DNA from: Polyangia bacterium
Lineage (GTDB): Bacteria; Myxococcota_A; Polyangia; Polyangiales; JAUICN01
Direction of reading: 5' to 3'
DNA: 64,000 bases
Assembly (NCBI GenBank): GCA_030427835.1
Contig: JAUICN010000001.1
Location: 1 to 64,000 of the forward strand
In this document: positions 14,943 to 37,390 of the stretch, piece by piece
Layout: each line of letters opens with the position of its first letter
Numbering within the stretch: the stretch's first letter is position 1
Translations under genes and position numbers: made by a program
Notes under the pieces: generated by a model
Told to the model about the DNA's origin: nothing
What the model saw: the letters and a program-made list of their open reading frames with translations, nothing else
Database searches by the model: none

Positions 14943-15242
14943 CGAACTTCTCCGGCAGCAAGATTGGCACTATTTACCACTTCTTACCACCTCATTCCGC
15001 CCAATCCCCTGAAGGTCCAATTTTGGGGTCAGAGCACCCACCCCAAAACCACGCCCCAAAATGACCCAGGTTGGTTTCACGCCCCCGTTCGCCCTTCTGG
15101 CAACTCCATGATTTGTCCTATGCCCAGCAACCCATTTGTAGGCTTAATACCATGACATTATTCGGACAATTTCGAACCTGGGTCGTTTTTGGATACAGGG
15201 CTCCGGGCTTGGCCTATCGATTGCTTAAGGAACTCAGGTTCT
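14943..15242. other. Divergent intergenic region mraZ / unknown lipoprotein
   Basis: About 300 bases separate the divergent mraZ and unknown lipoprotein starts. The left part holds the TGGTA boxes. The middle has G/C-tract-rich sequence (AACCACGCCCC, CCCAAAACC) without a clear hairpin. The right part is AT-richer and probably contains the promoter of the plus-strand gene, but no convincing -35/-10 pair could be assigned on either strand. Confidence 0.5.
14975..14989 (-). promoter_or_regulatory. Probable MraZ operator boxes upstream of mraZ
   Basis: Read on the minus strand, TGGTA occurs twice with 5-nt spacers (10-bp period), and a third, degenerate TGCCA follows in the same phase. Known MraZ operators are TGGGN repeats with 5-nt spacers. 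Here the fourth base is T in place of G, so the assignment is inferred from period, position about 35 nt before the mraZ start and resemblance only. Confidence 0.5.
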
Positions 15243-16562
15243 ATGCGGTACGTGAAATTATGGAAGTTGATTGGGGTCGTTGGCTGTTGGGCGATGGGCC
15301 AAGGGTGCACTTTGGAGCCGCCGGCGCACGGTCACAAAAGCGACCGTTTGGATCATCATGAGACCAATCCCCAATGCGATGAGTTCGCAAGGGCCCTGCT
15401 ACCGTTTGTGAACGGAGGGCTGGAGCAATCTCCAAAAGCCGCTCCACAAACCGTTCAGGAGAAGGTTGTCTCCCACTGGGAGGGTTGGATAACGCCGGCG
15501 CTTGAGAAATTTGGGCATCCACAGGATCTCCACGTAGAGGTTCGTTGGCGAAATCTACGCACGACGCTCGTCGATGTGCCACAGAACATCCCTCCCCAGG
15601 AGGGAGAACCTGCGTTGGAGGTGGTCCTTTTTAATACGACCCACGCGATTGCCTTTCGTGCGACCCGTTTTTTTCGCCTCCGTGGAATGGGCCCGCCCAA
15701 GGTCTCCCAATGGGCGATGTTTGACCTGCAACCTGTGGAGTCGGAATCGGCGGATCCACCGCATGTCACCCATCGCCTTCGGGGCTGTGCAAGTTCGCAC
15801 CGCGGAGGTTCCGAGTCCATGAGGACTTCTGGTGAGGATGTCACTCCTTACTTGAGGGAACTTTTGATCCAGAAGTCGATACTCTTTACCTATCTCGACG
15901 ATGCCGGGGATCATTGGAAGCGTGATCCGAGAGTTGTGGCGGGAATGCCAACCCTCCACGCAATCTCAGTGGATGGGTATGGTTTTTTTTCAGACGCGAT
16001 TTTTGGGGAAGAAGAGCTTCGGGCCGTGGGTACGTTGGGCCACCCGGTTGCTCTGCGACTGGCCCATACGAGAGCAAGGGCAGGAAAGTCGTCTGACGAT
16101 CTTGAGTCCCTTTTCTCCATGCCCAAACTGGTTCACCTCAGCCTGAGCACCCGGCAATTTTCCTTTTCACTTGCGCAACACTTTGGGTGGTCTTCCGCCA
16201 GCGTAACCACACTGACCGTGGGCCGCGAGCTCGGAAAATCAGAATGGTTTGACGCACAGGAAATCGAACCTCTGTCAGAGGTGTTTCCTGCACTCAACCT
16301 GCTGAGTTTCGAACAGGGCTCCACCCTAGATGAGGATAAATTTACGCACCTACTGGAGCACTGGCCTCCCACGCTTCGGGTACTCAAAGTTCCGCACCAG
16401 GTGTGGCGCGACGGCTTTGATGAACTCCTAAAGGTGGAGGAGCGTCTACGGGAGAAAAACCACCTCTTCCGGGTCACGTTGCAGGTTCCTTCTAGCTCAT
16501 TTTCAGACGGGGATGTGGCCGTGCTCCGGGAAAAGTTCCTGGGAGGCGTATCGGTCTACTAA
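15243..16562 (+). CDS. Unknown exported protein, LRR-like C-terminal half
   Basis: I do not recognise this gene. From the ATG at 15243 it encodes 439 residues starting MRYVKLWKLIGVVGCWAMG, a short signal sequence with possible lipobox cysteines at 15 (VVGC) or 23. An in-frame ATG at 15189 would put 18 residues before the signal. The C-terminal half has spaced leucine patterns such as MPKLVHLSLS, SVTTLTVG, FPALNLLSFEQ and PPTLRVLKVP, which resemble irregular leucine-rich repeats. It stands alone on the plus strand between mraZ and thiL, and thiL follows closely, so the two may be cotranscribed. Cell-surface or periplasmic location is inferred. No function is proposed. Confidence 0.7.
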   Translation: MRYVKLWKLIGVVGCWAMGQGCTLEPPAHGHKSDRLDHHETNPQCDEFARALLPFVNGGLEQSPKAAPQTVQEKVVSHWEGWITPALEKFGHPQDLHVEVRWRNLRTTLVDVPQNIPPQEGEPALEVVLFNTTHAIAFRATRFFRLRGMGPPKVSQWAMFDLQPVESESADPPHVTHRLRGCASSHRGGSESMRTSGEDVTPYLRELLIQKSILFTYLDDAGDHWKRDPRVVAGMPTLHAISVDGYGFFSDAIFGEEELRAVGTLGHPVALRLAHTRARAGKSSDDLESLFSMPKLVHLSLSTRQFSFSLAQHFGWSSASVTTLTVGRELGKSEWFDAQEIEPLSEVFPALNLLSFEQGSTLDEDKFTHLLEHWPPTLRVLKVPHQVWRDGFDELLKVEERLREKNHLFRVTLQVPSSSFSDGDVAVLREKFLGGVSVY

Positions 16563-22525: not shown

Positions 22526-23470
22526 TTAGGCACGTTCTAGCGCAAAGAAGGATTTGTAGAGGGCTTGATCGACCACGTTGAGGTTGAATTGAAAGACGTC
22601 CACAAACTCGTGCAATCCTGCCCCGAGTAGGTTTTCTACCTGGGCCGTCTCCAACATGTCTTCCAGTTTTGCCATTTCCCCATGGGCAGATACTGGGGTC
22701 TGGACCATGTCGACAATTCTGGACAGGGACCAGGCCGCTCCGCGCACGCAGGAACGGATGGAGCGTGGGAAGTGTTCATCCAATATCAAAAACTGGGCCA
22801 CGCCCTTGTAGTCCACACGGTGGAACCGCTTCATGTACACTTCAAACCCGCTTGCGGAAGCCAACACGGCCCCCCATTCGACGGAGTCGTAGGGCGTACC
22901 CACGTATTGTGGGTTCGGTAACAACAAAAAGTACTTCACATCGAGCATGCGCGCGGTCTTGTCACTGCGCTCAAGCAGGCGACCCATACGGGAGAAGTGC
23001 CAGCTCTCCCCGTGGGACATGGTGTTTTCAATCAACCCCGTCAGCATGTTGTTGGCCCGCTTCACCTGCGCATAGAACTCCAACAGGTCATCGATTTTTC
23101 GTTTACGTCGATGCTCCTCCACGAAGTGGTAGAGGCTATTGATCGTTTCCCACATCTCCGATGAGATGACCTCACGGATGGTTCTGGCGTTTTCCCGAGC
23201 GTGGCCTACACAGGACAGGATGGAGTTGCTGTTGTCGGGATCAAACGTGAGAAACTTCACCACGCTTGTTTCGTCCGCAATATCGTAGCGGGCCTGAAAG
23301 TCCGCGTCGTCCCCAGAGGCCAACACCAGGGGTTCCCATTGCCGTGGGCCCCGGTCGCGTAGGGAGTCCAATACGAGTCGGGAATTGACGTCCACAAAAC
23401 GGGCCACGTTGTCTGCGCGCTCCAGATAGCGACTCATCCAGTAAATCGAGTTGGCGACACGGCTAAGCAT
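22526..23470 (-). CDS. Alpha-E domain protein (DUF403)
   Basis: All-helical alpha-E protein found almost always next to a circularly permuted ATP-grasp enzyme. The start MLSRVANSIYWMSRYLERADNVARFVDVN is the family signature, as are HARENARTIREVISSEMWE and SHGESWHFSRMGRLLERSDKTARMLD further on. The ATG at 23470 is preferred (314 aa) because AAGGAG lies 6 nt upstream; the in-frame ATG 6 nt earlier abuts that motif. It overlaps the ATP-grasp gene by 8 nt. Its role is unproven; comparative genomic work proposes that it acts with the ATP-grasp and transglutaminase partners in making or modifying peptide bonds. Confidence 0.92.
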   Translation of the reverse strand: MLSRVANSIYWMSRYLERADNVARFVDVNSRLVLDSLRDRGPRQWEPLVLASGDDADFQARYDIADETSVVKFLTFDPDNSNSILSCVGHARENARTIREVISSEMWETINSLYHFVEEHRRKRKIDDLLEFYAQVKRANNMLTGLIENTMSHGESWHFSRMGRLLERSDKTARMLDVKYFLLLPNPQYVGTPYDSVEWGAVLASASGFEVYMKRFHRVDYKGVAQFLILDEHFPRSIRSCVRGAAWSLSRIVDMVQTPVSAHGEMAKLEDMLETAQVENLLGAGLHEFVDVFQFNLNVVDQALYKSFFALERA

Positions 23471-24926
23471 GGTCATCTCCTTGCAGGGTGTCGTCTCCCA
23501 GCACCCAGGTGTCTTTGCTTCCTCCGTTGCGCGACGAGTTCACAATCAAGGAACCTTTTGTCAGGGCCACCCGAGTCAGGCCGCCCGGAAGCACGAAAAC
23601 GCTTTTTCCGTACAAAACATAGGGTCGAAAGTCCACGTGCCGCCCTTCGATGCCGTCGGCCACAAGTGTGGGGCAACGGGACAGGGATAGGGTGGGTTGC
23701 GCGATGTAGCTCCGGGGGTTGGCCTCGATGAGTGCGGCAAACTCCTTGCGTTCCTGTTCGGTGGAAGAGGGGCCTATCAACATTCCCGACCCTCCAGAAA
23801 GATTGACTGCCTTGACCACCAGGGTCTTGAGGTTGGCCAATACGTGTTTGCGTTGCTTTTCGTCTTCGCAGATAAAGGTGGGGACGTTGGGGATGACGGG
23901 CTCTTCTCCGAGGTAGTACTTGATGATCTGCGGCACGTAGGCATAAACCGCTTTGTCGTCGGCAATCCCGGTGCCGGGCGCATTGGCCAGTGTGACCGTG
24001 CCCTTGCGGCAACACTCAAAGATGCCGGGGACACCAAGCAGGGAATCCTCTTGAAAGACCGTGGGATCCAGGAAGGCGTCATCAATACGGCGGTAAATGA
24101 CATCGACCTTTTCGAAACCCCGGGTGGTACGCAGCCACACACGCTCGTCAAACACCACAAGGTCTGACCCCTGTGCCAGGGGCACACCCATTTGCTGGGC
24201 CAGGTAGCTGTGTTCGTAATATGCAGAGTTGTAAATGCCTGGTGTCAGCACCACCACATTGGGCTCTTCTACCCCCTCTGGAGCGCAATCCTGCAAGGTC
24301 TCGTAAAGCTGATTGCCATAGTTGGATACGGGCCGCACATTCATTTCACCAAACGCACGGGGAAGGGTTCGCTTTTGAATGGCCCTGTTCTGCAACACGT
24401 AGGAGATGCCCGACGGGCAACGCAGGTTGTCTTCGAGCACGTAGTACGTGCCGTCCGTATCTCGAACGAGATCGCTGCCCGTGATTTGAATCCACGTGCC
24501 ATTTCGAGGTGAGAGACCCTTGCATTGTGGCAAGTAGCATTCCGACGACAGCACCAGGGATTCGGGGATGACCTTGTCCTTCAGGATTTTTTGATCGTTG
24601 TACACATCGTGAATAAACAGGTTTAGCGCGCGTACCCGCTGCGAAAGCCCGCTCTCGATCGTCGTCCACTCCTTGGAAGGGACGATGCGTGGAATGATGT
24701 CAAAGGGGAAAATCTTCTCGGTTCCCTTGCGGTCACCTTTTACGCTAAACGTGATGCCCTGCTGGTAGAGCGCCCGTTCGGCGGCCTTTTGGCGCCGACG
24801 AAGATCCTTTGCGGTCAATCCGTTGATGCGGTCCACAAGCAGCTTCGACGCGAGCCGTGGGGTGCCATCGGGGGCGATGAGCTCATCGTAGAACCCTTCT
24901 GTTTCGTAGTCTTTGAAGTTTTCCAT
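23463..24926 (-). CDS. Circularly permuted ATP-grasp protein (DUF404/DUF407)
   Basis: Predicted amide-forming ligase. The 487-residue sequence shows FYDELIAPDGTPR at the start, then RIVPSKEWTTIESGLSQRVRALN, YVLEDNLRCPSGISYVLQNR, the LTPGIYNSAYYEHSYLA motif, NAPGTGIADDKAVYAYVP and VVKAVNLSGGSGM, all typical of the type-2 circularly permuted ATP-grasp family. It is 55 nt downstream of the amidotransferase-like/transglutaminase fusion and overlaps the alpha-E gene by 8 nt, so the three form an operon. Substrates are unknown for the family; ligation of amino or carboxyl groups on a peptide or protein is the usual proposal. Confidence 0.93.
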   Translation of the reverse strand: MENFKDYETEGFYDELIAPDGTPRLASKLLVDRINGLTAKDLRRRQKAAERALYQQGITFSVKGDRKGTEKIFPFDIIPRIVPSKEWTTIESGLSQRVRALNLFIHDVYNDQKILKDKVIPESLVLSSECYLPQCKGLSPRNGTWIQITGSDLVRDTDGTYYVLEDNLRCPSGISYVLQNRAIQKRTLPRAFGEMNVRPVSNYGNQLYETLQDCAPEGVEEPNVVVLTPGIYNSAYYEHSYLAQQMGVPLAQGSDLVVFDERVWLRTTRGFEKVDVIYRRIDDAFLDPTVFQEDSLLGVPGIFECCRKGTVTLANAPGTGIADDKAVYAYVPQIIKYYLGEEPVIPNVPTFICEDEKQRKHVLANLKTLVVKAVNLSGGSGMLIGPSSTEQERKEFAALIEANPRSYIAQPTLSLSRCPTLVADGIEGRHVDFRPYVLYGKSVFVLPGGLTRVALTKGSLIVNSSRNGGSKDTWVLGDDTLQGDDHA

Positions 24927-24981
24927 CGAGACCCTTTCGCGGCCCTTCCGCTCGCCCAGGGGACGCCCTATTCGCGCCCTG

Positions 24982-26907
24982 CTACTCGCTCAACTCGCGT
25001 ACCTTGACGTCGATTTTCAAGGTTTCCATGCCGCCTCCACCCTTGTAAATGGTGCCGGAGGTGGGGGTAGCATCCCTGTAGTTTCGTCCGCAGGCTACCC
25101 GAATGTGATCCTGGGTGACGAAAGACCCATTGGTGGGGTCGAAACCACGCCACCCCACAAAGGGAAAGTAGACCTCCACCCAGGCGTGGGAGGCATCCGA
25201 TTGCACCTTGTTTTCGTAGTTGGCGCCGGTGTAGACGTACCCCATCCTGTAACGGGCGGGAATATTGAGTAGGCGCGCCAGGGAGATGAACAGGTTGGCA
25301 AAGTCCTGGCACACTCCCTTGCGCTCGGAGTACACGTCAAACGCGGTGGTGTGCAACGACGTGATGCCCTGCACGTACTTGTAATCCCGGTAGATGCTAC
25401 GGTTGATGTCTTCGATGGTCTTGACGAGTTGGTAGTCGTTGCGCTCGACAAAGCTCATGGCGTACTCGGTGAGCTCGTGGAGTTCGGACTCGGGAAGCTC
25501 CCGGGGGAGTAGGTAGGGCGTCATCATTTGCCGTTGCCAGGGCATCCACACCAGCGGGATCGAGGTCTGCCGTCGCGAAAGGCTTGGATCGTCGGGCGGG
25601 CGCGCAAAGATTTTTACCTGGCTGACGGCGGTTACCGACAGCTTCGTGTAGGGCGCGTCAATGGTGTAGTGCACGGCCTGGTTGCCGAAGACGTCCTCGA
25701 ACTGGATTTCCTCCCCGGGGGTGGATACGACCAGTTGGGATTTCACCACTTCTTGGATGGGATCATCGACAGGTTGCAGCCGAAAGAAATGGGTACTCCG
25801 AGAAATGGGCTTTGTGTACTCGTACTCGGTGTGGTGCCGTACTTCGAGGATCCGGTAGGTTAGTGGGTTACCGCCTGGGCTTTGGATTTGGGATCGAACG
25901 TTGGGTGTCAGTGACTGGGGTTGGGCCTGGGCCTTGGCTTGAGATTGGGATTGCTCGGCCTGAAACATCTGAAGCGTGTTGAAATCCGTACCTTGCCCGT
26001 CTGCCTGCTGTGGTTGTTGCTGGGGCAGGGGCGGTTGTGACGGAGCCGGTCGTTGCGACAGGGCGGGGGGGGGTACCGATGCCTCGCGACGGGCGGGCGC
26101 ACTGTTCCACACGATGTCACCACGGCGCACGAGGAGGCATTGGCCTGGCGCCATGGGGATCCAGTCGCCGTAGGTAAAGGGCGTGGAGGCGACCACAAGG
26201 GCCGTGCGGTAGGTATCCCTTCCGTCGTCCAACCGGAAGTCAACCGCGTCCGACTGGTAGGTTTCGCGGTTGTCGGGGGGCTGCACACGGGCGTAATAAA
26301 GGCCCTTGGGGGATTGGGACCCGTGGAAGCATGCGATGGTTTGGCCGTCGGTGAGGCACATGTCCGAACTTCCAAAACCATCGAACTCCAAAAACCAGCG
26401 ATGGAGTTCCGTTGGATCGATCTCGGAGAGGCGGCGGGTTTTGATCCCCTCCAACTGCCCGAGGAGATGGCAAAACGCCAACTCGGAGTCCGTGGTGCCC
26501 AGGGGCTCGAGCAACCGGGTTTGCTTGCCGTGAAGCGCCTCGAGCTTTTGTTTCTCCAGATCCCCATTGTGCATGAAGAGCCAATCCCGACCGGCGAAAC
26601 TCCGGGAGAAGGGCTGGGTTTCCGTTTGACTGTAGGTTTTGCTGGCGCCCCGCATCTTGCAAAAGAACACCGTGGACCGGAAGTTGGACCAATCGGTCAC
26701 GGCGTCCAACACCACCTGTGTGTCCTTGGCGACCGGGTCCTTGACCACCATGGACGACACCTGATCGCCTGGGTACCAGCCAAAACCCCAACCGTAGGAA
26801 TGGCTGCCACCAATCCCGTCACGCAGGGAGATATTGATGGTGGGGGACGCCGAACCATCGAGGCTCATGGCCAGGATGTCACTGGTAAGGATGGGTATTT
26901 GAAACAT
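24982..26907 (-). CDS. Glutamine-amidotransferase-like / transglutaminase fusion protein
   Basis: A 641-residue two-part protein from ATG 26907. Residues 1-265 resemble a class II glutamine amidotransferase (YGWGFGWYPG, FCKMRGASKTYSQTETQPF, FMHNGD, GTTDSELAFCHLL). Residue 2 is Phe, so the usual nucleophilic Cys after Met is not present with this start. A Gln/Pro/Ser-rich linker (about 270-350) joins it to a bacterial transglutaminase-like region with N-terminal beta domain (YRILEVRHHTEYEYTKP) and an intact triad, about Cys533 (GVCQDFAN), His574 (SHAWVEVYF) and Asp590 (GFDPTN). A start at 27048 is possible but crosses the divergent gene's start. It heads the ATP-grasp/alpha-E operon. Confidence 0.85.
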   Translation of the reverse strand: MFQIPILTSDILAMSLDGSASPTINISLRDGIGGSHSYGWGFGWYPGDQVSSMVVKDPVAKDTQVVLDAVTDWSNFRSTVFFCKMRGASKTYSQTETQPFSRSFAGRDWLFMHNGDLEKQKLEALHGKQTRLLEPLGTTDSELAFCHLLGQLEGIKTRRLSEIDPTELHRWFLEFDGFGSSDMCLTDGQTIACFHGSQSPKGLYYARVQPPDNRETYQSDAVDFRLDDGRDTYRTALVVASTPFTYGDWIPMAPGQCLLVRRGDIVWNSAPARREASVPPPALSQRPAPSQPPLPQQQPQQADGQGTDFNTLQMFQAEQSQSQAKAQAQPQSLTPNVRSQIQSPGGNPLTYRILEVRHHTEYEYTKPISRSTHFFRLQPVDDPIQEVVKSQLVVSTPGEEIQFEDVFGNQAVHYTIDAPYTKLSVTAVSQVKIFARPPDDPSLSRRQTSIPLVWMPWQRQMMTPYLLPRELPESELHELTEYAMSFVERNDYQLVKTIEDINRSIYRDYKYVQGITSLHTTAFDVYSERKGVCQDFANLFISLARLLNIPARYRMGYVYTGANYENKVQSDASHAWVEVYFPFVGWRGFDPTNGSFVTQDHIRVACGRNYRDATPTSGTIYKGGGGMETLKIDVKVRELSE

Positions 26908-27034
26908 CAGAGGTTCGGTACGGGTGTGGGGTGTGGGGCAGGACACGTAAACCTGGTGCGGGCCATGCCTACCTGGGTTAGGCTGCAGCTTACCAGCGAT
27001 TACGTGTTCTGTCGTTCCCGAGGAGGGGTTCACC
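26908..27034. promoter_or_regulatory. Divergent promoter region of the transglutaminase cluster
   Basis: These 127 bases separate the divergent starts of the amidotransferase/transglutaminase operon (minus) and the transglutaminase-DUF2126 gene (plus), so promoters for both must lie here or overlap the coding ends. The plus-strand gene has GAGGAGGGG 6 nt upstream of its ATG. No clear sigma-70 pair could be assigned. Confidence 0.45.
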
Positions 27035-30000
27035 ATGCATATTCTCACGGCACTGCACCACGTGACCCACTACCGGTACGACCGGGCCGCCCAATTGGGC
27101 ACACAAACCATTCGATTGCGGCCTGCACCCCATGTGCGCTCACCCATTGGGGCCTACTCCCTTCAGATCTCGCCCAAGAACCACTTTTTGAATTGGCAGC
27201 AGGATCCCTTCGGGAATTTCCTGGCCAAGGTGTCGTTTCCTGAGCCGATTCGGGAGTTCAAGGTGGAGGTGGACCTCATTGCGGAGGTGCGGGCGTTCAA
27301 TCCATTTGATTTCTTTTTGGAGGATCAGGCCACGGACTTTCCCTTTTCCTACGACGACGCGCTTCGGGAAGAGTTGGCCCCCTACCTGGAGATCAAGAAC
27401 AACAGCGAGCAGCTTCGGGCTTGGGTGGCGGACATCGATGTGTCGAAGCGGGGCACCATCGACTTCCTGGTGTCGGTCAACCAAAAGCTCAACGGCGCAC
27501 TTCGCTACACGGTGCGTTTGGAACCTGGAATCCAACGCTGCGAAGAAACGCTGGAATTGGGGAGTGGCTCCTGCCGGGACATGGCCTGGCTGCTGTGCCA
27601 GGGATTGCGACACCTGGGTTTGGCCACGCGTTTTGCCTCTGGATACCTGATTCAACTTGCGGCGGACGTGAAATCCCTGGACGGGCCCTCGGGCACGGAA
27701 ACGGACTTCACCGATCTGCATGCCTGGACGGAAATCTACCTTCCGGGGGCGGGATGGGTGGGGCTGGACCCCACGTCGGGATTGTTTGTGGGGGAGGGGC
27801 ACATTCCGCTGTGCTGCACCCCCAACCCTTCCAGTGCGGCGCCCATTTCAGGGACGCTAGAGAGCGGCGTGCAATCCACCATGGAACACATCATGGATGT
27901 GCAACGGGTGGAGGAGTCTCCCCGGGTTACCCGACCCTATTCGGAGACCCAATGGGCTGCCATCGACGGGCTCGGCCATGCGGTGGACGCGGATCTGAAG
28001 GCCCAGGACGTTCGGCTCACCATGGGGGGGGAACCGACGTTCGTCTCCCTGGACGACCGTGAAAGCGGCGCATGGCATTTTGATGCCCTAGGGGGAGACA
28101 AGAAGGCGCTGGGCAATACCCTCGCCAGGAGGCTCGAACAGCGTTTCGCACCGGGCGGGTTGCCCATGCACACCCAGGGCAAGTGGTACCCCGGGGAGAT
28201 CCTCCCCCGGTGGGCCATGCCGGTATTCTGGCGCAGGGACGGGGAGCCCCTTTGGGGGCAACGCCAGTGGCTCGCCAACCCAGACGAACCCCTGAAACAT
28301 GATCTGGAGACCGCAAGAACGTTCATCGAAGCGTTCGCCAACAACCTGGGCATTCCCAAAAACTACGTGCGGCCCCTTCGGGAAGACACGCCCTACTACC
28401 TGTGGAAGGACCGCAAGTTACCCGCCCAGGACACGATGATGGAGCAGGACGTGTACGAGAAGGCGGAGCGGGAGCGCTTGCAGACCTTGATGGAGCAGAA
28501 CCTCAATCGCCCGGTGGGTTACGCCCTGCCCCTTCACTACTCCCAACGCCGCCAACAGTGGATTAGCAACCGTTGGGAGTTCCGCAGCCCCCACACCATT
28601 TTGCTTACGGGGGATTCACCTGCGGGACTTCGCCTGCCCCTTGGGAGCTTGCCAAGCCCGAAGGAATCCGCCGAGGAGTTGTGCCCCCCCCGCTCCACGT
28701 TTGAGAAGGTGACCGCGCTTGCGAGCCACGTGGATCTGATGGAGCGTGTGACAGGCGGGGCGGCGGGGAAGGCCGAAGCTCGCGCCAAGGGGTTTGAGGA
28801 CGATCCCAACGGGCTTATTCGTACGGCGCTTACGGTGGAGGTGCGCAACGGCATCGTGCACCTGTTTTTGCCGCCTGTGGCGTGGTTGGAGCATTTTGTG
28901 GAGCTCATCGTTCGGCTGGAAGCCACCGCGGCACGTACGGGCGTCGCGGTCGTGCTCGAGGGGTACACGCCGCCACGGGATCCACGCATTTCCCATTTCA
29001 GTGTGACGCCGGATCCGGGGGTCATCGAAGCCAACGTTCAACCGACTGGGAACTGGAGTGAACTCAAGACGGTGGTGAACACCGTGTACGCCGAAGCACG
29101 GGAGGCACGCCTCTCCACGGAGAAGTTTTTGGTGGACGGGCGCCGGGTGGGGACCGGGGGTGGCAATCACATCGTGGTTGGGGCCGCCACACCGGAGGAC
29201 AGCCCGTTTTTGCGAAGACCCGATCTTCTGCGTTCCTTGCTGCTGTTTTGGCAACACCACCCTTCCCTTTCCTATGTGTTTTCTGGAATGTTCGTGGGCC
29301 CCACAAGCCAGGCACCGCGCATCGACGAGGCACGCCACGATTCGCTGTACGAGTTGGAGATTGCGTTTCAGCAGGTTCCCAGGAAGGGCGACGTGCCGCC
29401 CTGGCTGGTGGATCGCCTTTTTCGAAATCTCCTGATCGACTCGGCTGGCAACACCCATCGATCCGAGTTCTGCATCGACAAACTGTACAGCCCCGATGGG
29501 GAACAGGGCAGGCTGGGCCTTGTGGAGTTGCGAGGATTTGAGATGCCTCCCCACCCCCGCATGGGCCTGGCCCAATCCCTGCTTATCCGTGCATGCATTG
29601 CTGCGTTCTGGAAGCGCCCCTACACCGGCAGTTTTGTTCGGTGGGGGACCCGTTTGCACGATCGGTTCATGCTCCCCCACTATCTTGAACAGGATTTCCA
29701 GGAGGTGCTCACACACCTTGGGGATCACGGGTACGACTTTCACACCTCGTGGTTTGAACCGTTCTTCGCGTTTCGGTTTCCCCTGTGTGGAAAAGCAAAC
29801 GTGACGGGGGCGCGGGCAGGAGATGCCTCGCTTACGCTACGCACGGCGCTCGAGCCCTGGCATGTGATGGGCGAAGAATCTTCCGGGGGGGGCACAAGCC
29901 GGTCTGTGGATGCCACCGTGGAGCGACTTCAGGTGACGGCCACGGGCCTCGTGGAAGGTCGCCATGTCCTCACGTGCAACGGCAGGCCCGTGCCGCTCAC

Positions 30001-30343
30001 ACCCACGGGCCAGACCGGGACCCAGGTGGCGGGAGTACGTTTTAAGGCCTGGTCCCAACCGGCAAGCTTGCACCCCAGGATCCCCGCAACCGGCACGCTG
30101 GTGTTCGATGTGGTTGACGCGCACCAACACCGCTCACTGGGCGGCTGCACCTACCACGTGGCCCACCCGGGGGGGCGCAACCACAGCACCTACCCGGTGA
30201 ACGAAAACGAGGCCGAGGGAAGGCGCATCGCGCGCTTCGAGGCGATGGGCCACTCCCCAGGCAAGGTTTCCGTGCCCGAGCCCGATGCAAACCCTGAGTT
30301 CCCACACACCCTGGACCTCCGCTGGAACGCCCCGCTTGCGTGA
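27035..30343 (+). CDS. Transglutaminase-like / DUF2126 protein
   Basis: A 1102-residue protein. The N-terminal 290 residues form a transglutaminase-like unit with the beta-rich region (ALHHVTHYRYDRAAQLGTQTIRLRP) and triad Cys180 (GSCRDMAWLL), His229 (DLHAWTEIY) and Asp245 (LDPTSG). Residues about 340-1100 match DUF2126, with VRLTMGGEPTFVSLDD, GKWYPGEILPRWA, GTGGGNHIVVG, SYVFSGMFVGPTSQAPRIDEARHD, and LVELRGFEMPPHPRMGLAQSLL. The DUF2126 region is thought to have an amidoligase-like fold; that is published inference for the family. It is divergent from the ATP-grasp/alpha-E operon, the usual neighbourhood. A strong Shine-Dalgarno supports the start. Confidence 0.93.
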   Translation: MHILTALHHVTHYRYDRAAQLGTQTIRLRPAPHVRSPIGAYSLQISPKNHFLNWQQDPFGNFLAKVSFPEPIREFKVEVDLIAEVRAFNPFDFFLEDQATDFPFSYDDALREELAPYLEIKNNSEQLRAWVADIDVSKRGTIDFLVSVNQKLNGALRYTVRLEPGIQRCEETLELGSGSCRDMAWLLCQGLRHLGLATRFASGYLIQLAADVKSLDGPSGTETDFTDLHAWTEIYLPGAGWVGLDPTSGLFVGEGHIPLCCTPNPSSAAPISGTLESGVQSTMEHIMDVQRVEESPRVTRPYSETQWAAIDGLGHAVDADLKAQDVRLTMGGEPTFVSLDDRESGAWHFDALGGDKKALGNTLARRLEQRFAPGGLPMHTQGKWYPGEILPRWAMPVFWRRDGEPLWGQRQWLANPDEPLKHDLETARTFIEAFANNLGIPKNYVRPLREDTPYYLWKDRKLPAQDTMMEQDVYEKAERERLQTLMEQNLNRPVGYALPLHYSQRRQQWISNRWEFRSPHTILLTGDSPAGLRLPLGSLPSPKESAEELCPPRSTFEKVTALASHVDLMERVTGGAAGKAEARAKGFEDDPNGLIRTALTVEVRNGIVHLFLPPVAWLEHFVELIVRLEATAARTGVAVVLEGYTPPRDPRISHFSVTPDPGVIEANVQPTGNWSELKTVVNTVYAEAREARLSTEKFLVDGRRVGTGGGNHIVVGAATPEDSPFLRRPDLLRSLLLFWQHHPSLSYVFSGMFVGPTSQAPRIDEARHDSLYELEIAFQQVPRKGDVPPWLVDRLFRNLLIDSAGNTHRSEFCIDKLYSPDGEQGRLGLVELRGFEMPPHPRMGLAQSLLIRACIAAFWKRPYTGSFVRWGTRLHDRFMLPHYLEQDFQEVLTHLGDHGYDFHTSWFEPFFAFRFPLCGKANVTGARAGDASLTLRTALEPWHVMGEESSGGGTSRSVDATVERLQVTATGLVEGRHVLTCNGRPVPLTPTGQTGTQVAGVRFKAWSQPASLHPRIPATGTLVFDVVDAHQHRSLGGCTYHVAHPGGRNHSTYPVNENEAEGRRIARFEAMGHSPGKVSVPEPDANPEFPHTLDLRWNAPLA

Positions 30344-30377: not shown

Positions 30378-32006
30378 CTAGATCAGACCGCTGAGCAGGT
30401 ACTTGAGGTAGTCGACATTCGAGAGGGGGGGCATATTTACTAGGGTGAAGCCGTGCTGCGGAGGTGGCGCGTTCATATGGGCGCTGCGAACCGTCGCAAC
30501 GGTATTCTTTTTCCAGACCGGTCGAAGGCCTGGTTCCCCAACCTGGGAACTCATCAGCTTCTCGAGATTGAGGACATATCCTTCATCCTGCTCAGCAACG
30601 GTGGTGAGGGCCTGTTCGATGCAGAGCAGGTACATGCGTGCGGCAAGCCCTGTGACCAGCGCATTGTAGAATGCTTCAAGTTCTTCGATGGACGCGGAGT
30701 GGGCGTTGTACTCCATGTGGAACTCAAAAAAGCCTTTCTTTGCGGCCTCCAATCGTCCAGGGATCCCTGCGACACGCTGTGAGCATGCGTCGTCATCGTG
30801 GTGTTCCTGGGCGCGTTCTAGTAACTTTTTCGCAGCTTTGTTTGCTGCAAGCCAAGCCTCTTCATCTTCCCAGGAGGGCTCAAAGTCTAGCGCCTTGCGG
30901 AGGGGCTCAAGTAGATCCTCCAGCAACCCGAGTTGTTTCATAACCTGGTGTTCACTCTCGCCTTCTTTCTCGGCACGGTGTGTTTCAGTAACCCACTTTT
31001 GGATGTTGCGTTGAAGCACTTCTGCTCCCTGCTCCAGTTCTTCGTGGGTGTGAGCGTTGATACGGCGGACAACTCGTAGAACTCCCGTGGGCACGCGTTG
31101 TACCCACCAGCCGTACCAGTCGTAGCCTGCCCTGATTTCGAAGTCTTCTGACAACTCCATGATGCCCCACAGGAATACCCCCGCCAACACCGCACCAACA
31201 CCTGGGTTCGAAGCGGGTTTAGTGGCACCCAACACCGGAGGTGCTCCAGGAACGGTGGGAGCACCGGGGAGAACCGTACCGGGGGTACGCATGGCCCCCC
31301 CGCGGGCTTGTTGTAAATGCGGGTGGGGAGCGATGGGCACCACCGGGCGCACCTCCACCACAACCGTGGGAACCATCCACCCATCCCAGGTGCTTGTGAC
31401 AGGCCCCACGGCGAGGGCTGCCACCAACGGGCCCGGGTTGCCCTGAAGTGCGTGCTGGTGCACCTCCTCCACGAGCTGCTGGGCGAGGTGCACGCGTAGC
31501 AGTGCCACTTCTTCGGGTTCTGGCTTCATGCTCTTCGGGTCCCAATCGGGTTTCACGGAGCGAGGTTGGGGGACAACGGGGGTGCTGAGGGTGACATCGT
31601 TCCGAGTCACCTCCGACATGGTGTCGCGTGCACCCGGCACAAGGTTCAGCACCGGTATCGGCTCCATGACCCCGATGGCGCCAGGCACGTTTCTAGACTG
31701 CACCTTGGTCCACCCGTAGCAACGCACCGCGCGAGGCTGCGCTTCGTCCAAGCTCAATCCCAGGGCGGTCCTGGCCACACGGGTCACCAGCCCCTGTTTC
31801 ATTTCTCCAACCGAGCAGTGGTGCAGCGACATCGCTTTGGATGACAACACGACGTAGGGGGCGCCAGTGGGTATTGGCCCAGGCCCGCCTTTGGAAGATG
31901 ACGTGGATGGCGCGACCGAGCAGGCGAACAGGGCGGTGGCGATTGCGGTGACCAATGCGACAGAAACGAGGGCCATAGGAACTGTACTAGGTCGGAGGAT
32001 TCGCAT
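30378..32006 (-). CDS. Unknown lipoprotein, member 1 of a three-paralogue family
   Basis: Function not recognised. The ATG at 32006 has GGAAGG 5-6 nt upstream and gives 542 residues with a signal of about 28 residues ending in LFAC, so lipidation is likely. The mature part has a Pro/Gly/Thr-rich middle with a hydrophobic segment (GVGAVLAGVFLWGIMEL) and a helical, charged C-terminal half. It is related to the proteins at 33537 and 35699: YVVLSSKAMSLHHC near the start, LDFEPSWEDEEAWL matching LEFDPLLDESEAWV, and GLAARMYLLCIEQAL matching LVTAEIYLRCLETFM in the second protein. It is convergent with the DUF2126 gene and 104 nt downstream of hemL. Confidence 0.72.
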   Translation of the reverse strand: MRILRPSTVPMALVSVALVTAIATALFACSVAPSTSSSKGGPGPIPTGAPYVVLSSKAMSLHHCSVGEMKQGLVTRVARTALGLSLDEAQPRAVRCYGWTKVQSRNVPGAIGVMEPIPVLNLVPGARDTMSEVTRNDVTLSTPVVPQPRSVKPDWDPKSMKPEPEEVALLRVHLAQQLVEEVHQHALQGNPGPLVAALAVGPVTSTWDGWMVPTVVVEVRPVVPIAPHPHLQQARGGAMRTPGTVLPGAPTVPGAPPVLGATKPASNPGVGAVLAGVFLWGIMELSEDFEIRAGYDWYGWWVQRVPTGVLRVVRRINAHTHEELEQGAEVLQRNIQKWVTETHRAEKEGESEHQVMKQLGLLEDLLEPLRKALDFEPSWEDEEAWLAANKAAKKLLERAQEHHDDDACSQRVAGIPGRLEAAKKGFFEFHMEYNAHSASIEELEAFYNALVTGLAARMYLLCIEQALTTVAEQDEGYVLNLEKLMSSQVGEPGLRPVWKKNTVATVRSAHMNAPPPQHGFTLVNMPPLSNVDYLKYLLSGLI

Positions 32007-32110
32007 AGTGAACCTTCCAAGCAATATCTCTGCCACCCGGCTCAAGCGGCCGTTCCCCCTGGGATCAGAGGGCCAGAACGGAAACTCGGGGTGGGTTTAT
32101 CGTGAGCTGC

Positions 32111-33445
32111 CTAGGGCATGTTTGCGACGGCTTCGAAGGCGGCGGTTAGGGCGGTTTGGGTTTGGGTGAGTTCGGGTTCGCCGTGGGCCAGGGAGGGGAA
32201 GGCCGCTTCGAAGGGGGACGGGGGCCAGTAGATGCCGTGCTCGAGTAGGGTGGCGTGCCAGGTGCGGAATTGATCAGCGTTGCAGGCGGCCGAGTCGTTC
32301 CAGTTGGTGACGGCACTTTGCTCGGTGAAGAAGACGGTGAGCATGGCACCCACCTGTTGCACGGTGACGGGTACGCCTGCAGCGGCGGCGGCCTCGCGCG
32401 CCATGGTGGCGAGCTGGGCGCTTGTGGCTTCCAGTTGGGCGTAGGTGCTTTCGTCCTTGGTGAGTTGCTCCAGGGTGGCGAGGCCTGCGGCCACGGCCAC
32501 GGGATTGCCGCTGAGGGTTCCTGCCTGGTACACGGGGCCGGAAGGGGCCACCCGCTCCATGATGTCGCGGCGCCCGCCGTAGGCCGCAAGAGGAAAACCG
32601 CCGCCGACGATTTTGCCGAGCGTGGTGAGATCTGGCGTCACGTTGTAACGGGCCTGGGCGCCGCCAAGGGCCACACGGAAACCGGTCATGACTTCGTCAA
32701 AAATCAGCACCACACCGTGGGTTGTGCACAGCTTGCGCAGGCCCTGAAGGAAACCCTCGGCTGGTGGAATGCAGCCCATGTTGCCGGCCACAGGTTCCAC
32801 CAGGATGGCGGCCACCGTGTCCCCGATGGATTGGAGGGTTTGCTTCACCGCGTTCAAGTCGTTGTAGGGAAGTACGGTGCAGGTTCCTGCAATGGCGGCT
32901 GGAATGCCAGCGCTGTCGGGCACGCCAAGTGTGGCGGCACCACTGCCCGCTTTGACGAGTAGGTAGTCGGCACCCCCGTGGTAGCCGCCCTCAAACTTGA
33001 TGACCTGATCACGGCCGGTGAACCCACGGGCGGCGCGCACGGCACCCATGACGGCTTCGGTTCCGCTTGAAACCAATCGGGACATTTCCATGGAGGGCAC
33101 GAGTTCGGCCAACCGTTCAGCCAACTCCACTTCGGCCCGGGTGGGCGCACCAAAGCTTGCACCCTGTTGCACGGCTTCTGTGGCGGCCTCCACCACGGCG
33201 GGGTGGGCGTGGCCAAGAATCATGGGCCCCCAGGAACCCACGTAGTCCACATAACGATGGCCATCCTCGTCCTCCAACCAGGCACCCTTGGCACTGCGAA
33301 TAAACGGCGGCGTTCCACCCACGGCCTTGAATGCACGCACGGGGGAGTTCACCCCACCGGGCATGTGGCGTTGGGCACGATCAAACAGGGACGTGGATCG
33401 GGACGGCGCCGATGGAGAAGAAGCGGGAGCGGAACTCTCAGGCAT
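32111..33445 (-). CDS. hemL: Glutamate-1-semialdehyde 2,1-aminomutase HemL
   Basis: PLP enzyme making 5-aminolevulinate from glutamate-1-semialdehyde in the C5 tetrapyrrole pathway. Family motifs are clear: RAQRHMPGGVNSPVRAF, YVDYVGSWGPMILGHAHP, VSSGTEAVMGAVRAARG, FEGGYHGGADYLLVKAGSG, LIFDEVMTGFRVALGGAQ and the PLP lysine in TLGKIVGGGFPLAAYGG. Length (444) is slightly long because of a Ser/Ala/Pro-rich N-terminus. It stands between two members of the unknown lipoprotein family, all on the same strand, which looks like a chance arrangement or a shared transcript; no other heme gene is nearby. Confidence 0.97.
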   Translation of the reverse strand: MPESSAPASSPSAPSRSTSLFDRAQRHMPGGVNSPVRAFKAVGGTPPFIRSAKGAWLEDEDGHRYVDYVGSWGPMILGHAHPAVVEAATEAVQQGASFGAPTRAEVELAERLAELVPSMEMSRLVSSGTEAVMGAVRAARGFTGRDQVIKFEGGYHGGADYLLVKAGSGAATLGVPDSAGIPAAIAGTCTVLPYNDLNAVKQTLQSIGDTVAAILVEPVAGNMGCIPPAEGFLQGLRKLCTTHGVVLIFDEVMTGFRVALGGAQARYNVTPDLTTLGKIVGGGFPLAAYGGRRDIMERVAPSGPVYQAGTLSGNPVAVAAGLATLEQLTKDESTYAQLEATSAQLATMAREAAAAAGVPVTVQQVGAMLTVFFTEQSAVTNWNDSAACNADQFRTWHATLLEHGIYWPPSPFEAAFPSLAHGEPELTQTQTALTAAFEAVANMP

Positions 33446-33536
33446 GGCCCAGGCTTAGGGCCAGCACGCCGTGTGCGCCAATGGTTCTTTGGGCTCGATT
33501 TCGCCAACCCCCGTACAACGAACTCTCCGCCGCGCG

Positions 33537-35201
33537 CTACCGCAAGTACTTGATCAACCAGTCCAGAGTCTCGACCGAGACGGGGCTACGATCCTGTGTC
33601 TCCCATTCTACGCTCATTCTTTCCGCGGCGCGCAGTATTCCCGCCACGACAAATAACTCTTCAAACTCTCGCAACCCCCACCCTGAACGGGCAAGCGTTG
33701 GGAGGTAATCTGAGACCTCTCGTACGAAGGCGGGGTCAAACCGATCTTCCGTCACGCCGTCGTGCATGAATGTCTCGAGGCAACGCAGATAAATTTCAGC
33801 GGTAACCAGTGGCGCTACGTACTCAAAAAAGTTCACAACGTTCACCATCTGGGTTGTGACATTTCCGTTTCGAATGGTTTGAAGTTCGAGGGTGATCTCA
33901 CGGTCAAACTCCAGTGTGTATTCCGTACACCAGTGGGGAGTCAGTCCCGCCCTAAGGTGCGAGGCCAACGAACTGGCGAGCAACTCCTTCAACCGGTCTG
34001 CACGGGTTGCCGTCTGTACCCAGGCTTCGCTTTCATCCAACAGGGGATCGAACTCGAGATCCATTTCCAGCGCTCGAAACAACTTGCGGACAAGGCCCAT
34101 TTTTTGTTGAAGCTCCCTAAGCTCTTCGGGGCTACGCATGGCTCGCGGGGAATCCGCCATTTCCTGTTCGATGGCCTGGGCCTTTGCCTCCACATGGGCC
34201 AGTGCCCCACGCATGGCGGAGGTGAACTGCAACTCGTGGTCGTCGTAGCTGTTGTACCGTCCCAGGTGTTTCACGCCCTTGATGGATCTGGACGACACTT
34301 GGTTTTTCCGCACGCGATCTTCTTCCAATTGGACGACCCAAACGTCGTACGCACGGGCTGCAAGTGGGTTGATCTTCAATAGCTGGATTGTCGCATTGAT
34401 CAGTTTCACTAGGGGCCCGACCCCAGGAAGATACCGAGTGTACTCCATTGTCTCCAGAGCTTTTTCCGCGGCTTGCACAGGGGTTGGTGCCAGGCTCGTC
34501 TGCGGGAAAATGGGGTTCATGATGGCAAAAGCAGAGGGATGGCTGTTGTCTTGTACTTTCTCCGGAGGCAACAAGAAGCCCACTCCCTTCCCTATCGCGG
34601 GTGCCGGATACCCCAGTTCCACCAGTCGACGAATCAACCACACTTGCTGCGACGATGGACGCGGCGTATCCAACAGTTGCAACAATGCCTGGGCCTCCAC
34701 GTCCATCCACACATGGGGCAACACCGCCAGGCGCTTGTTGTTCGTGGGAGGTCCTGCAAGTACCAGGGGCCATGCCGGTGACCTCGTAAGCTCACCCTTC
34801 AGGTTGGCCACACTGTTGTGGGCCCAACGGGTGAGCCATTGGTATGGGTAATCCGATCGGTTGTCCTGCACGATTCCTGAGGGGCGCAAGAAACGTGATT
34901 TGCCAGCTTGAGCAATGTTCAGGGTTTGTTTAACGAGTCCGTTTTCATCGCTTTGTAGGCCGAGAACAGGCCTCGTCCCTCCCCACTTTTCCGGGAATTT
35001 GCAGCTCACACCGGCGGTGCGCTCTCCATTTATTTCGGTTGCTCGGCAGTCACTGACATCCATTTCGGCGGTGACCACCACGAGCTCCACCACCCGACGA
35101 AACGGATCCCCTTTTTCCCTGGCCCCTGGCACGGTTGGAGCACAGGCACCAAGCCAAAAAAGTTGGCAAAAAACCACCAACAACCCGACCGCGGGCCGCA
35201 T
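33537..35201 (-). CDS. Unknown lipoprotein, member 2 of a three-paralogue family
   Basis: Function not recognised. The ATG at 35201 gives 554 residues with a good lipoprotein signal (MRPAVGLLVVFCQLFWLGAC); an ATG 11 codons earlier (35234) is possible but adds residues before the basic n-region, and neither start has a clear Shine-Dalgarno. The mature N-terminus has two cysteines and a WGGT motif (VELVVVTAEMDVSDC, then SCKFPEKWGGT) shared with the protein at 35699 (LEMVLITADVNANHC, then ECDLAPMWGGT). A central YDVWVVQ and YNSYDDHEL pair is also shared. The C-terminal half is helical and lacks membrane segments. Likely anchored in a membrane and facing the periplasm or surface. Confidence 0.74.
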   Translation of the reverse strand: MRPAVGLLVVFCQLFWLGACAPTVPGAREKGDPFRRVVELVVVTAEMDVSDCRATEINGERTAGVSCKFPEKWGGTRPVLGLQSDENGLVKQTLNIAQAGKSRFLRPSGIVQDNRSDYPYQWLTRWAHNSVANLKGELTRSPAWPLVLAGPPTNNKRLAVLPHVWMDVEAQALLQLLDTPRPSSQQVWLIRRLVELGYPAPAIGKGVGFLLPPEKVQDNSHPSAFAIMNPIFPQTSLAPTPVQAAEKALETMEYTRYLPGVGPLVKLINATIQLLKINPLAARAYDVWVVQLEEDRVRKNQVSSRSIKGVKHLGRYNSYDDHELQFTSAMRGALAHVEAKAQAIEQEMADSPRAMRSPEELRELQQKMGLVRKLFRALEMDLEFDPLLDESEAWVQTATRADRLKELLASSLASHLRAGLTPHWCTEYTLEFDREITLELQTIRNGNVTTQMVNVVNFFEYVAPLVTAEIYLRCLETFMHDGVTEDRFDPAFVREVSDYLPTLARSGWGLREFEELFVVAGILRAAERMSVEWETQDRSPVSVETLDWLIKYLR

Positions 35202-35321
35202 CTGCAACGACTGGATACTTGGGAAAGACAACATGATGAACTACTTCTGCAAGTTCCAGGCCAGGACGGAAGCACCTGGGGTGACATTGACCCGGAACCT
35301 ACCTTGGGGGATGACGGAGGG

Positions 35322-35579
35322 ATGGATGTCACGGAAGCATTTGAACAGGCCAAGCTAACGATCAAGACGCTGAAGCAGCCGCCCAGCAACGATGTGTTGT
35401 TGAAGCTGTACGCGCTCTACAAGCAGGGGTCACTTGGGGATGCTGCGGGCAAGCGGCCGGGGATGTTGGATGTGGTGGGCCGGGCCAAGTACGACGCCTG
35501 GGCCGGGCTGCAGGGGAAAAGCCAGGACGAAGCCAAACAGGCCTACGTGGACCTGGTGGCGCAACTGGTCGGACGATGA
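35322..35579 (+). CDS. Acyl-CoA-binding protein (ACBP family)
   Basis: Small soluble protein of 85 residues that binds long-chain acyl-CoA esters and buffers or shuttles them. The sequence matches the ACBP four-helix family throughout: FEQAKLTIKTLKQPPSNDVLLKLYALYKQGSLGD, then KRPGMLDVVGRAKYDAWAGL and the final AYVDLVAQLVGR. The ligand-binding positions Tyr30/Tyr33/Lys34, Lys56 and Tyr75 are kept. The length equals that of eukaryotic ACBP. GGAGGG abuts the ATG, which is too close for a good Shine-Dalgarno, so the start rests on the domain. It lies alone on the plus strand between two minus-strand unknown lipoprotein genes. Its last three codons and stop form the first copy of a 16-bp tandem repeat. 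Confidence 0.88.
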   Translation: MDVTEAFEQAKLTIKTLKQPPSNDVLLKLYALYKQGSLGDAAGKRPGMLDVVGRAKYDAWAGLQGKSQDEAKQAYVDLVAQLVGR

Positions 35580-35662
35580 GCGGGTCGGACGATGAGCGGG
35601 TCGGACGATGAGCGGGTCGGACGATGAGCGGGTCGGACGATGAGCGGGTCGGACGATGAGCT
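35567..35662. repeat. 16-bp tandem repeat, six copies, from the ACBP stop codon on
   Basis: The unit GGTCGGACGATGAGCG is repeated six times without gaps (starts 35567, 35583, 35599, 35615, 35631, 35647), with one change in the last copy, then a decayed seventh start. The first copy contains the last ACBP codons and its TGA. Since 16 is not a multiple of three, the repeat is harmless only because it follows the stop. A likely variable-number locus. Confidence 0.95.
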
Positions 35663-35698
35663 AGTCGACCGGTGACGGAGCGCTGGTGATGGCTCCAT

Positions 35699-37390
35699 TC
35701 AGTCGAGGTTGTTGATCCAGCGCGTGATCCGGTTGAGCAGGCTGCGCCCCGCGGTGCGCCATTTTTCTTCGGTAATAGTGGAAACGTACTCGTCGACCGC
35801 ACGGGCCACAACGGCAACGACTTTGACCACCGCGGATTCCGGGGCGACGCGTGCGTAGGACTGGGCCAACCTTCCGAGAGTCACCTCGACCATTTCTCGA
35901 CTTGGCTCCAATGTTTGGTTGGCGAAGGTGTTCCAGGAGTCCCTGGGGATGTGCCTTTGGTCGCAGGCACTCTGGAAGGCCTGGGGCAACCATTGGGCAC
36001 TGTCTTGCAGCATGTCGTGGATGCGCATGTACGGGTCCGGACCCATCCGGGCGAGCACCGCTAAACGATCGAGCACCTCTTGACGCAGGCCCATGCTCGG
36101 CCGCACATCGGATCCTGCTCGCAGCTGTTCCAGGGCCACGAGCAACCTCTCGATGGATTCTTGCAGTTCAGCAGCAAACTGAACGCAACGGTTGGCGGAC
36201 TGCAACAATCGGGATGCGACCATCATCTTTTTTGAAGCGGCCAGGCCTGCTAACCAATCGGGATGATCCGGCGTCATTTTGAAATCGTTCTCAGCGTCCT
36301 TGAGTGGCTTCAACGGGTCGAAGTTCAGCAAATGATCTGTCCAAAGGATCTCAAGGTTCCTGCGAAGACCCGCGACGACGGATTCCACCTGGGTGTGGAC
36401 GTGGCGTAGGGCGAGCTCGTGATCTTCATAGGTGGCCAAATGCCGCGTGGAAACGGACACCTTGCGGGTGGAATCGTCGTTCACGTCAAACGTGACCTTC
36501 CACACGTCAAAGGCCTGGGCCTTCATGGGATTGAGGCTGTAAAGCATCATCGGGACGAGGGCGTATCTGGAAAGGACGGCAAGGGTACTGCCGCCTGCGT
36601 TTTGCACCGCTTGGGCTTGAGTCGCCGCCGTACTGGACTGGGGTAGATGGTGCACCGCCGCCTGGGTCGCTAGCTCCTGGGCGACCGCGAACCCGCCAAG
36701 GATGAACCCCTCGTCGAGGGGTAGGTCCATCCGAGATTGCAGGGCCTTTTCAAGTTGTTCTTTTTCCGCCGCGACCTGCCGCTCTTCCAACAACTGGACG
36801 ATGCCAGCGGTTTTCAGGTTCACGCCCATGTGAGGGATTCGCACGGTAAAGGCCTTGTTGTCGAACGGGTCGCTGGAAGAGGGCTTGGTGCTCTTCCAAT
36901 CGGTGCCGTGCACTTGGCCCACAGCGAGCGGGAACGTGGCGGCGGGAAACTCGCCAGTTGCGGTCTTGTGGGCGAATGCCCAGGCGTGGTGCACCAACCA
37001 GTTGTGGGGATGGAATGCCGATTCTTTTTGAAAGGAAAGCTCAGGGGGTGTGGTGAATGCGGCCCGTTCTCTCCCCCCGTAGAGCAGCGGGGTTTGATTG
37101 ACGATCTGGTGGTGTTGGGGATCGACAACAAGGTTTTTGATGGTTTGGGTGCCGCCCCACATGGGCGCCAGATCGCATTCGACCGCGACGGATCCCTTGC
37201 GGTAGGGCTTGCAGTGATTGGCGTTTACGTCCGCCGTGATGAGCACCATCTCTAGGCGACGTTGATCCCTGTCAGCGCTCAAGGTCTTTGCCGAGCCGGA
37301 AACGGGGGTGGCGCTGGGAGCGAGCGCGCAGGAGGCCATGGCTGCCGTCATCAACAGGCACGTGACAGAGGATTCGAGGGATGGATCCAT
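35699..37390 (-). CDS. Unknown exported protein, member 3 of a three-paralogue family
   Basis: Function not recognised. The 563-residue product starts with a hydrophobic segment ending in AMASC, a possible lipobox, but the n-region (MDPSLESS) is acidic, which is unusual; the start codon at 37390 has no clear Shine-Dalgarno. Like the protein at 33537 it has LEMVLITADVNANHC then ECDLAPMWGGT near residues 45-80, and a central AQAFDVWKVTF plus LATYEDHEL matching ARAYDVWVVQL and YNSYDDHEL. The rest is mostly helical with leucine-rich, charged segments. It is the first gene of the minus-strand lipoprotein group and is divergent from the moxR-bat operon. Confidence 0.74.
   Translation of the reverse strand: MDPSLESSVTCLLMTAAMASCALAPSATPVSGSAKTLSADRDQRRLEMVLITADVNANHCKPYRKGSVAVECDLAPMWGGTQTIKNLVVDPQHHQIVNQTPLLYGGRERAAFTTPPELSFQKESAFHPHNWLVHHAWAFAHKTATGEFPAATFPLAVGQVHGTDWKSTKPSSSDPFDNKAFTVRIPHMGVNLKTAGIVQLLEERQVAAEKEQLEKALQSRMDLPLDEGFILGGFAVAQELATQAAVHHLPQSSTAATQAQAVQNAGGSTLAVLSRYALVPMMLYSLNPMKAQAFDVWKVTFDVNDDSTRKVSVSTRHLATYEDHELALRHVHTQVESVVAGLRRNLEILWTDHLLNFDPLKPLKDAENDFKMTPDHPDWLAGLAASKKMMVASRLLQSANRCVQFAAELQESIERLLVALEQLRAGSDVRPSMGLRQEVLDRLAVLARMGPDPYMRIHDMLQDSAQWLPQAFQSACDQRHIPRDSWNTFANQTLEPSREMVEVTLGRLAQSYARVAPESAVVKVVAVVARAVDEYVSTITEEKWRTAGRSLLNRITRWINNLD

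Follow-up and report, generated by a model that had tools for sequence, protein, structure and literature searches.

Lineage-specific families of paralogous lipoproteins, diverged, narrow in distribution and of no known function, are found in the Myxococcota. A second point of comparison is given by the SitA toxins, each of which is associated with a cognate immunity gene, sitI (PMC5562445). In this work, we analyzed three genes, termed P1, P2 and P3, that lie on either side of hemL in a stretch of 64,000 nucleotides (the window) from contig JAUICN010000001.1 of a Polyangia bacterium. A preliminary description of the window had noted three genes for exported proteins around hemL, and the corresponding open reading frames (ORFs) were found at 30378, 33537 and 35699, all on the minus strand.

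The interpretation that we lean towards is that P1, P2 and P3 are members of a family of exported lipoproteins that is restricted to one lineage, numbers at least six copies and is probably located in the outer membrane, its distal C-terminal domains being interchangeable. Three further members were detected elsewhere in the genome: (i) P4, on contig 29, is the nearest relative of P3 (35% identity, E 3e-75), (ii) P5, at contig 15, 146464-147888, carries an N-terminal domain of the P1 type (P1-P5 E 6e-9), and (iii) P6, at contig 15, about 151991-153463, resembles P5 along both halves (E 1.2e-7) and, weakly, P1. The N-terminal domains thus fall into a type A (P1, P5 and P6) and a type B (P2, P3 and P4), and profiles of either group, searched against the whole genome, retrieved no seventh copy.

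The evidence that we consider the strongest in uniting the six copies is their cysteine architecture. Each of the three window proteins opens with a hydrophobic stretch followed by a lipobox-like cysteine (ALFAC in P1, WLGAC in P2 and AMASC in P3), as the preliminary description had noted, and such a cysteine is present in all six copies, weakly in P3 and in P5, where it reads WGGC. Numbering the mature proteins from the lipid cysteine as 1, cysteines stand at 1, 36, 68, 380 and 434 in P1; 1, 33, 48, 406 and 455 in P2; 1, 40, 52, 382 and 456 in P3; 1, 33, 49, 396 and 471 in P4; 1, 36, 51, 335, 346, 378 and 440 in P5; and 1, 36, 65, 337, 348, 376 and 438 in P6. All six therefore have the lipid cysteine, a cysteine at 33-40, another at 48-68 and no further one before 300, followed by one pair in the helical domain of P1-P4 or by a four-cysteine domain common to P5 and P6. 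The lipid cysteine aside, the count is even in every mature copy, as expected if exported proteins carry disulfide bonds. With position ranges set after the sequences had been inspected, shuffling of each protein reproduced the N-terminal layout in 0.01-0.18% of cases, and of the 26 lipobox-like ORFs with at least 350 residues on two contigs only family members showed it; this screen overlooked P5, whose WGGC lies outside the pattern. Furthermore, a composite N-terminal motif of the VxC..W and NL type occurs in 6/6 copies and a helical-domain motif in P1-P4, each in 0/434 other long ORFs, both motifs having been composed after the sequences were viewed. The residue at +2 to the lipid cysteine is S, A, A, T, L and A in P1 to P6. 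According to the E. coli sorting rule, a lipoprotein lacking Asp after the lipid cysteine is compatible with outer-membrane sorting, and thus so are all six copies.

Common membership of P1, P2 and P3 is well supported by sequence comparison and is transitive, since P2-P3 and P1-P2 are significant and P1-P3 is not. P2 and P3 align across their N-terminal 330 residues (E 3e-16), the P1-P2 alignment is confined to the helical C-terminal part (E 6e-7), and the direct pairwise comparison of P1 and P3 remained below significance (E 0.03). Against shuffles preserving local composition, the respective Z values were 23 (P2-P3), 6.4 (P1-P2) and 3.0 (P1-P3). The helical domains of P1 and P2 are, in addition, reciprocal best non-self matches among the 2999 ORFs of the two contigs (E 4-5e-4; next about 1). 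The paralogy of all three proposed in the preliminary description is thus direct for two of the pairs, but not for P1-P3. The motifs on which it drew fared in a similar manner: WGGT is present in two of the three (P2 and P3) and LEFDP/LDFEP-EAW together with YLxCxE were found in P1 and P2, both as described, whereas the YDVW...HEL centre is found in P2 and P3 (YDVW/FDVW, DHEL) and leaves only a loose echo in P1 (GYDWYGWWV, HTHEEL). A direct three-way resemblance of the N-terminal parts is suggestive only, and what ties the two N-domain groups together is the helical domain of P1 and P2 along with the layout of cysteines and motifs.

Behind related N-terminal domains the copies carry different C-terminal parts, in the combinations type A with the helical domain (P1), type A with the four-cysteine domain (P5, P6) and type B with the helical domain (P2-P4). 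The earlier view of the three genes as old tandem duplicates proved too simple because the nearest relatives of P3 and of the P1 N-terminal domain are not neighbours: P4 lies on a different contig, and P5 and P6, which come nearest to P1 in its N-terminal half, are about 115-120 kb distant from it. The mosaic could have arisen either by domain exchange or from a single ancestral architecture with uneven divergence rates. Nor do the data show that the genes form a system, given that no partner gene is conserved across the six copies; hemL, bat and the other neighbours vary by copy, and the position of hemL between P2 and P1 is probably incidental context.

Searches of 183 other genomes of the same order yielded no family match, 317 genomes of the same class gave none apart from weak short matches of N-type A, and 378 phylum-sampled genomes gave two short matches only (E 0.006-0.01); few candidates were scored per genome, and this absence covers moderately diverged relatives. 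These searches brought up no further genome from the same family. Pattern scans of GTDB contigs and of viral contigs returned nothing, and the plasmid search a single chance-level match (E 0.7). The weak matches in other genomes (E 0.001-0.05) were set aside as isolated and short. We hold the claim to no moderately diverged relative found, because relatives as distant as P1 is from P3 would escape. The family has no relative in Pfam, NCBIfam, PHROGs or PDB, in agreement with the preliminary description; a PDB match between P2 and designed helical proteins was discounted, as we attribute it to helix composition.

Taken together, the lipobox, the linker behind it, the even cysteine count and the replaceable C-terminal part point towards envelope lipoproteins, most likely of the outer membrane or cell surface. 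The proteins would be exported by the Sec route, lipidated at the lipobox cysteine and tethered by a linker of roughly 20-30 residues rich in Pro, Gly, Ser and Ala. A membrane-proximal N-terminal domain, closed by a disulfide between the two conserved N-terminal cysteines, would present a distal exchangeable domain. This distal part, a helical domain with a single disulfide in P1-P4 and a domain of the four-cysteine type in P5 and P6, may bind something in the envelope or at the cell surface. The lipobox and cysteine evidence also fits periplasm-facing lipoproteins of the inner or outer membrane that have a structural or chaperone-like envelope role without surface display, the helical C-terminal domain agrees with such a role, and none of the observations calls for surface exposure. 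Nevertheless, extreme divergence between copies, a single lineage and a replaceable C-terminal part would be more usual in surface-facing proteins than in housekeeping proteins of the envelope, and we consider a periplasmic role possible though rather unlikely. Unlikely as well is a bolder form of the outer-membrane interpretation, in which the copies would be hitherto undescribed modular surface lipoproteins of a new fold, confined to a single bacterial family, with a disulfide-pinned N-terminal stalk and exchangeable heads for cell-cell or prey recognition.

Several observations weigh against the outer-membrane, modular interpretation. P3, with its n-region MDPSLESSV, and P5 have atypical signal peptides, the mosaicism could equally be explained by uneven divergence of one ancestral architecture, and outer-membrane or surface location and binding, like the disulfides, are inferred. 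AlphaFold models had a mean predicted local distance difference test (pLDDT) score of 40 for P3 (3-row alignment) and of 47 for the P2 helical domain (4-row alignment), the latter all-helical at low confidence; the predicted secondary structure hints weakly at an N-terminal half made of strands and a C-terminal half made of helices. Besides, the mutual profile matches expected of the three proteins did not extend to the N-terminal domains: with hhalign, {P1,P5,P6} against {P2,P3,P4} gave an E value of 0.57, inside the shuffled-column null, and short motif profiles of either group failed to rank the other. This last result, together with the P1-P3 comparison, would also be expected if P1 had no common ancestry with P2 and P3 and resembled them through helical composition and motif hunting. 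Such an explanation seems improbable, however, in view of the P1-P2 score against local-composition shuffles, the reciprocal best matches of the helical parts and the cysteine layout common to 6/6 copies.

Regarding the individual loci, P1 (30378-32045, minus strand) encodes a lipoprotein-like protein of 555 residues, starting at TTG or alternatively at an ATG near 32006, and joins an N-terminal domain of the P5/P6 type to a helical C-terminal domain of the P2 type. Its N-terminal motif VVLSS...HHC...VRCYGW...PIPVLNL (31638-31853, minus) contains Cys 77 and 109 (mature 36 and 68), and its helical domain (30612-31013, minus) LDFEP..EAW, CSQ (Cys 421) and YLLCIE (Cys 475). P2 (33537-35234, minus) is a lipoprotein of 565 residues with an N-terminal domain of the P3/P4 type and a helical C-terminal domain; the motif VVVTAEMDVSDC...VSCKFPEKWGGTRPVLGL (34959-35087, minus) holds Cys 63 and 78, and the helical domain (33765-34244, minus) LEFDP..EAW, CTE (Cys 436) and YLRCLE (Cys 485). 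P3 (35699-37390, minus) is lipoprotein-like with 563 residues, its motif MVLITADVNANHC...VECDLAPMWGGTQTIKNL (37130-37252, minus) holding Cys 60 and 72 and its helical domain (35951-36427, minus) LNFDP..DW, CVQ (Cys 402) and ACDQ (Cys 476). In the three genes, GC content by codon position is about 0.62-0.67, 0.42-0.45 and 0.64-0.73, a pattern as in neighbouring real genes. Between P2 and P1 lies hemL, encoding glutamate-1-semialdehyde aminomutase (32111-33445, minus; TIGR00713, 584 bits, cut-off 527), and between P3 and P2 a plus-strand gene for an acyl-CoA-binding protein ending at 35579. A perfect 16-base tandem repeat, GGTCGGACGATGAGCG, present in 5.9 copies at window positions 35567-35661, has a unit that matches the latter gene at its 3' end, stop codon included, and looks like recent slippage.

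Further lipoprotein-like proteins were noted. Beside P5 and P6, four related ones of 600-700 residues are encoded on the minus strand of L025 (9941-11878, 11686-13803, 15490-17439 and 17443-19491). They show trypsin-like landmarks in order (TA.SC, HD.A.L, GYG and GD.GGG), with Ser at the catalytic His position and E, C, G or D at the catalytic Ser position, and are possibly pseudo-proteases; no Pfam or PDB match for a trypsin-like fold was obtained. L011 10675-12108 (minus), which immediately precedes P4 and is oriented like it, encodes a lipoprotein-like protein with weak leucine-rich repeat matches (LRR_14, 29.9 bits, under the cut-off). Its layout, judged by eye only, resembles that of a lipoprotein-like orphan of 457 residues without family match at window positions 15189-16562 (plus). 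The window also contains a cluster of transglutaminase-type and amidoligase genes (22526-30343), including a DUF2126-transglutaminase fusion.

Finally, SitA-like lipoprotein toxins, passed from cell to cell by outer-membrane exchange and composed of a conserved N-terminal escort and a polymorphic C-terminal toxin, would account for the lipobox and for related N-terminal domains with differing C-termini, an architecture seen in SitA families (PMC8546572; PMC5562445), in a host likely related to the myxobacteria, yet we regard them as highly improbable and did not file P1-P6 as SitA because there is no downstream room for an immunity gene at any copy (for P1 and P3-P6 the downstream neighbour is a convergent gene about 21-120 bases away, for P2 it is hemL) and because no toxin domain was matched in Pfam, NCBIfam or PHROGs, where an undescribed one would escape. 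The comparison is nonetheless instructive. SitA toxins carry a nuclease domain at the C-terminus and depend on TraA/TraB for delivery. Like SitA, P1-P6 combine a lipobox-type signal, present in 6/6 copies though less clear in P3 and P5, with an N-terminal domain specific to the family (about 300 residues here, about 375 in SitA), differing C-terminal domains and several copies per genome; compared by description only, the escort/polymorphic layout may be echoed by P1, which shares its N- but not its C-terminal domain with P5 and P6 and its C-terminal domain with P2. In contrast to SitA, they are without an adjacent immunity gene or a recognisable toxin domain, and their C-terminal domains retain a conserved cysteine layout from copy to copy. 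With the lineage-specific lipoprotein families of Myxococcota they share divergence and narrow distribution, and they differ from these in matching no NCBIfam or Pfam model and in having a cysteine layout of their own. What would have been six unrelated hypothetical proteins can be viewed as one coherent family with a testable cysteine signature, a further instance of lipoproteins that are confined to a lineage and apparently modular. If their C-terminal domains were recognition or effector heads, modular lipoproteins would be known beyond SitA.
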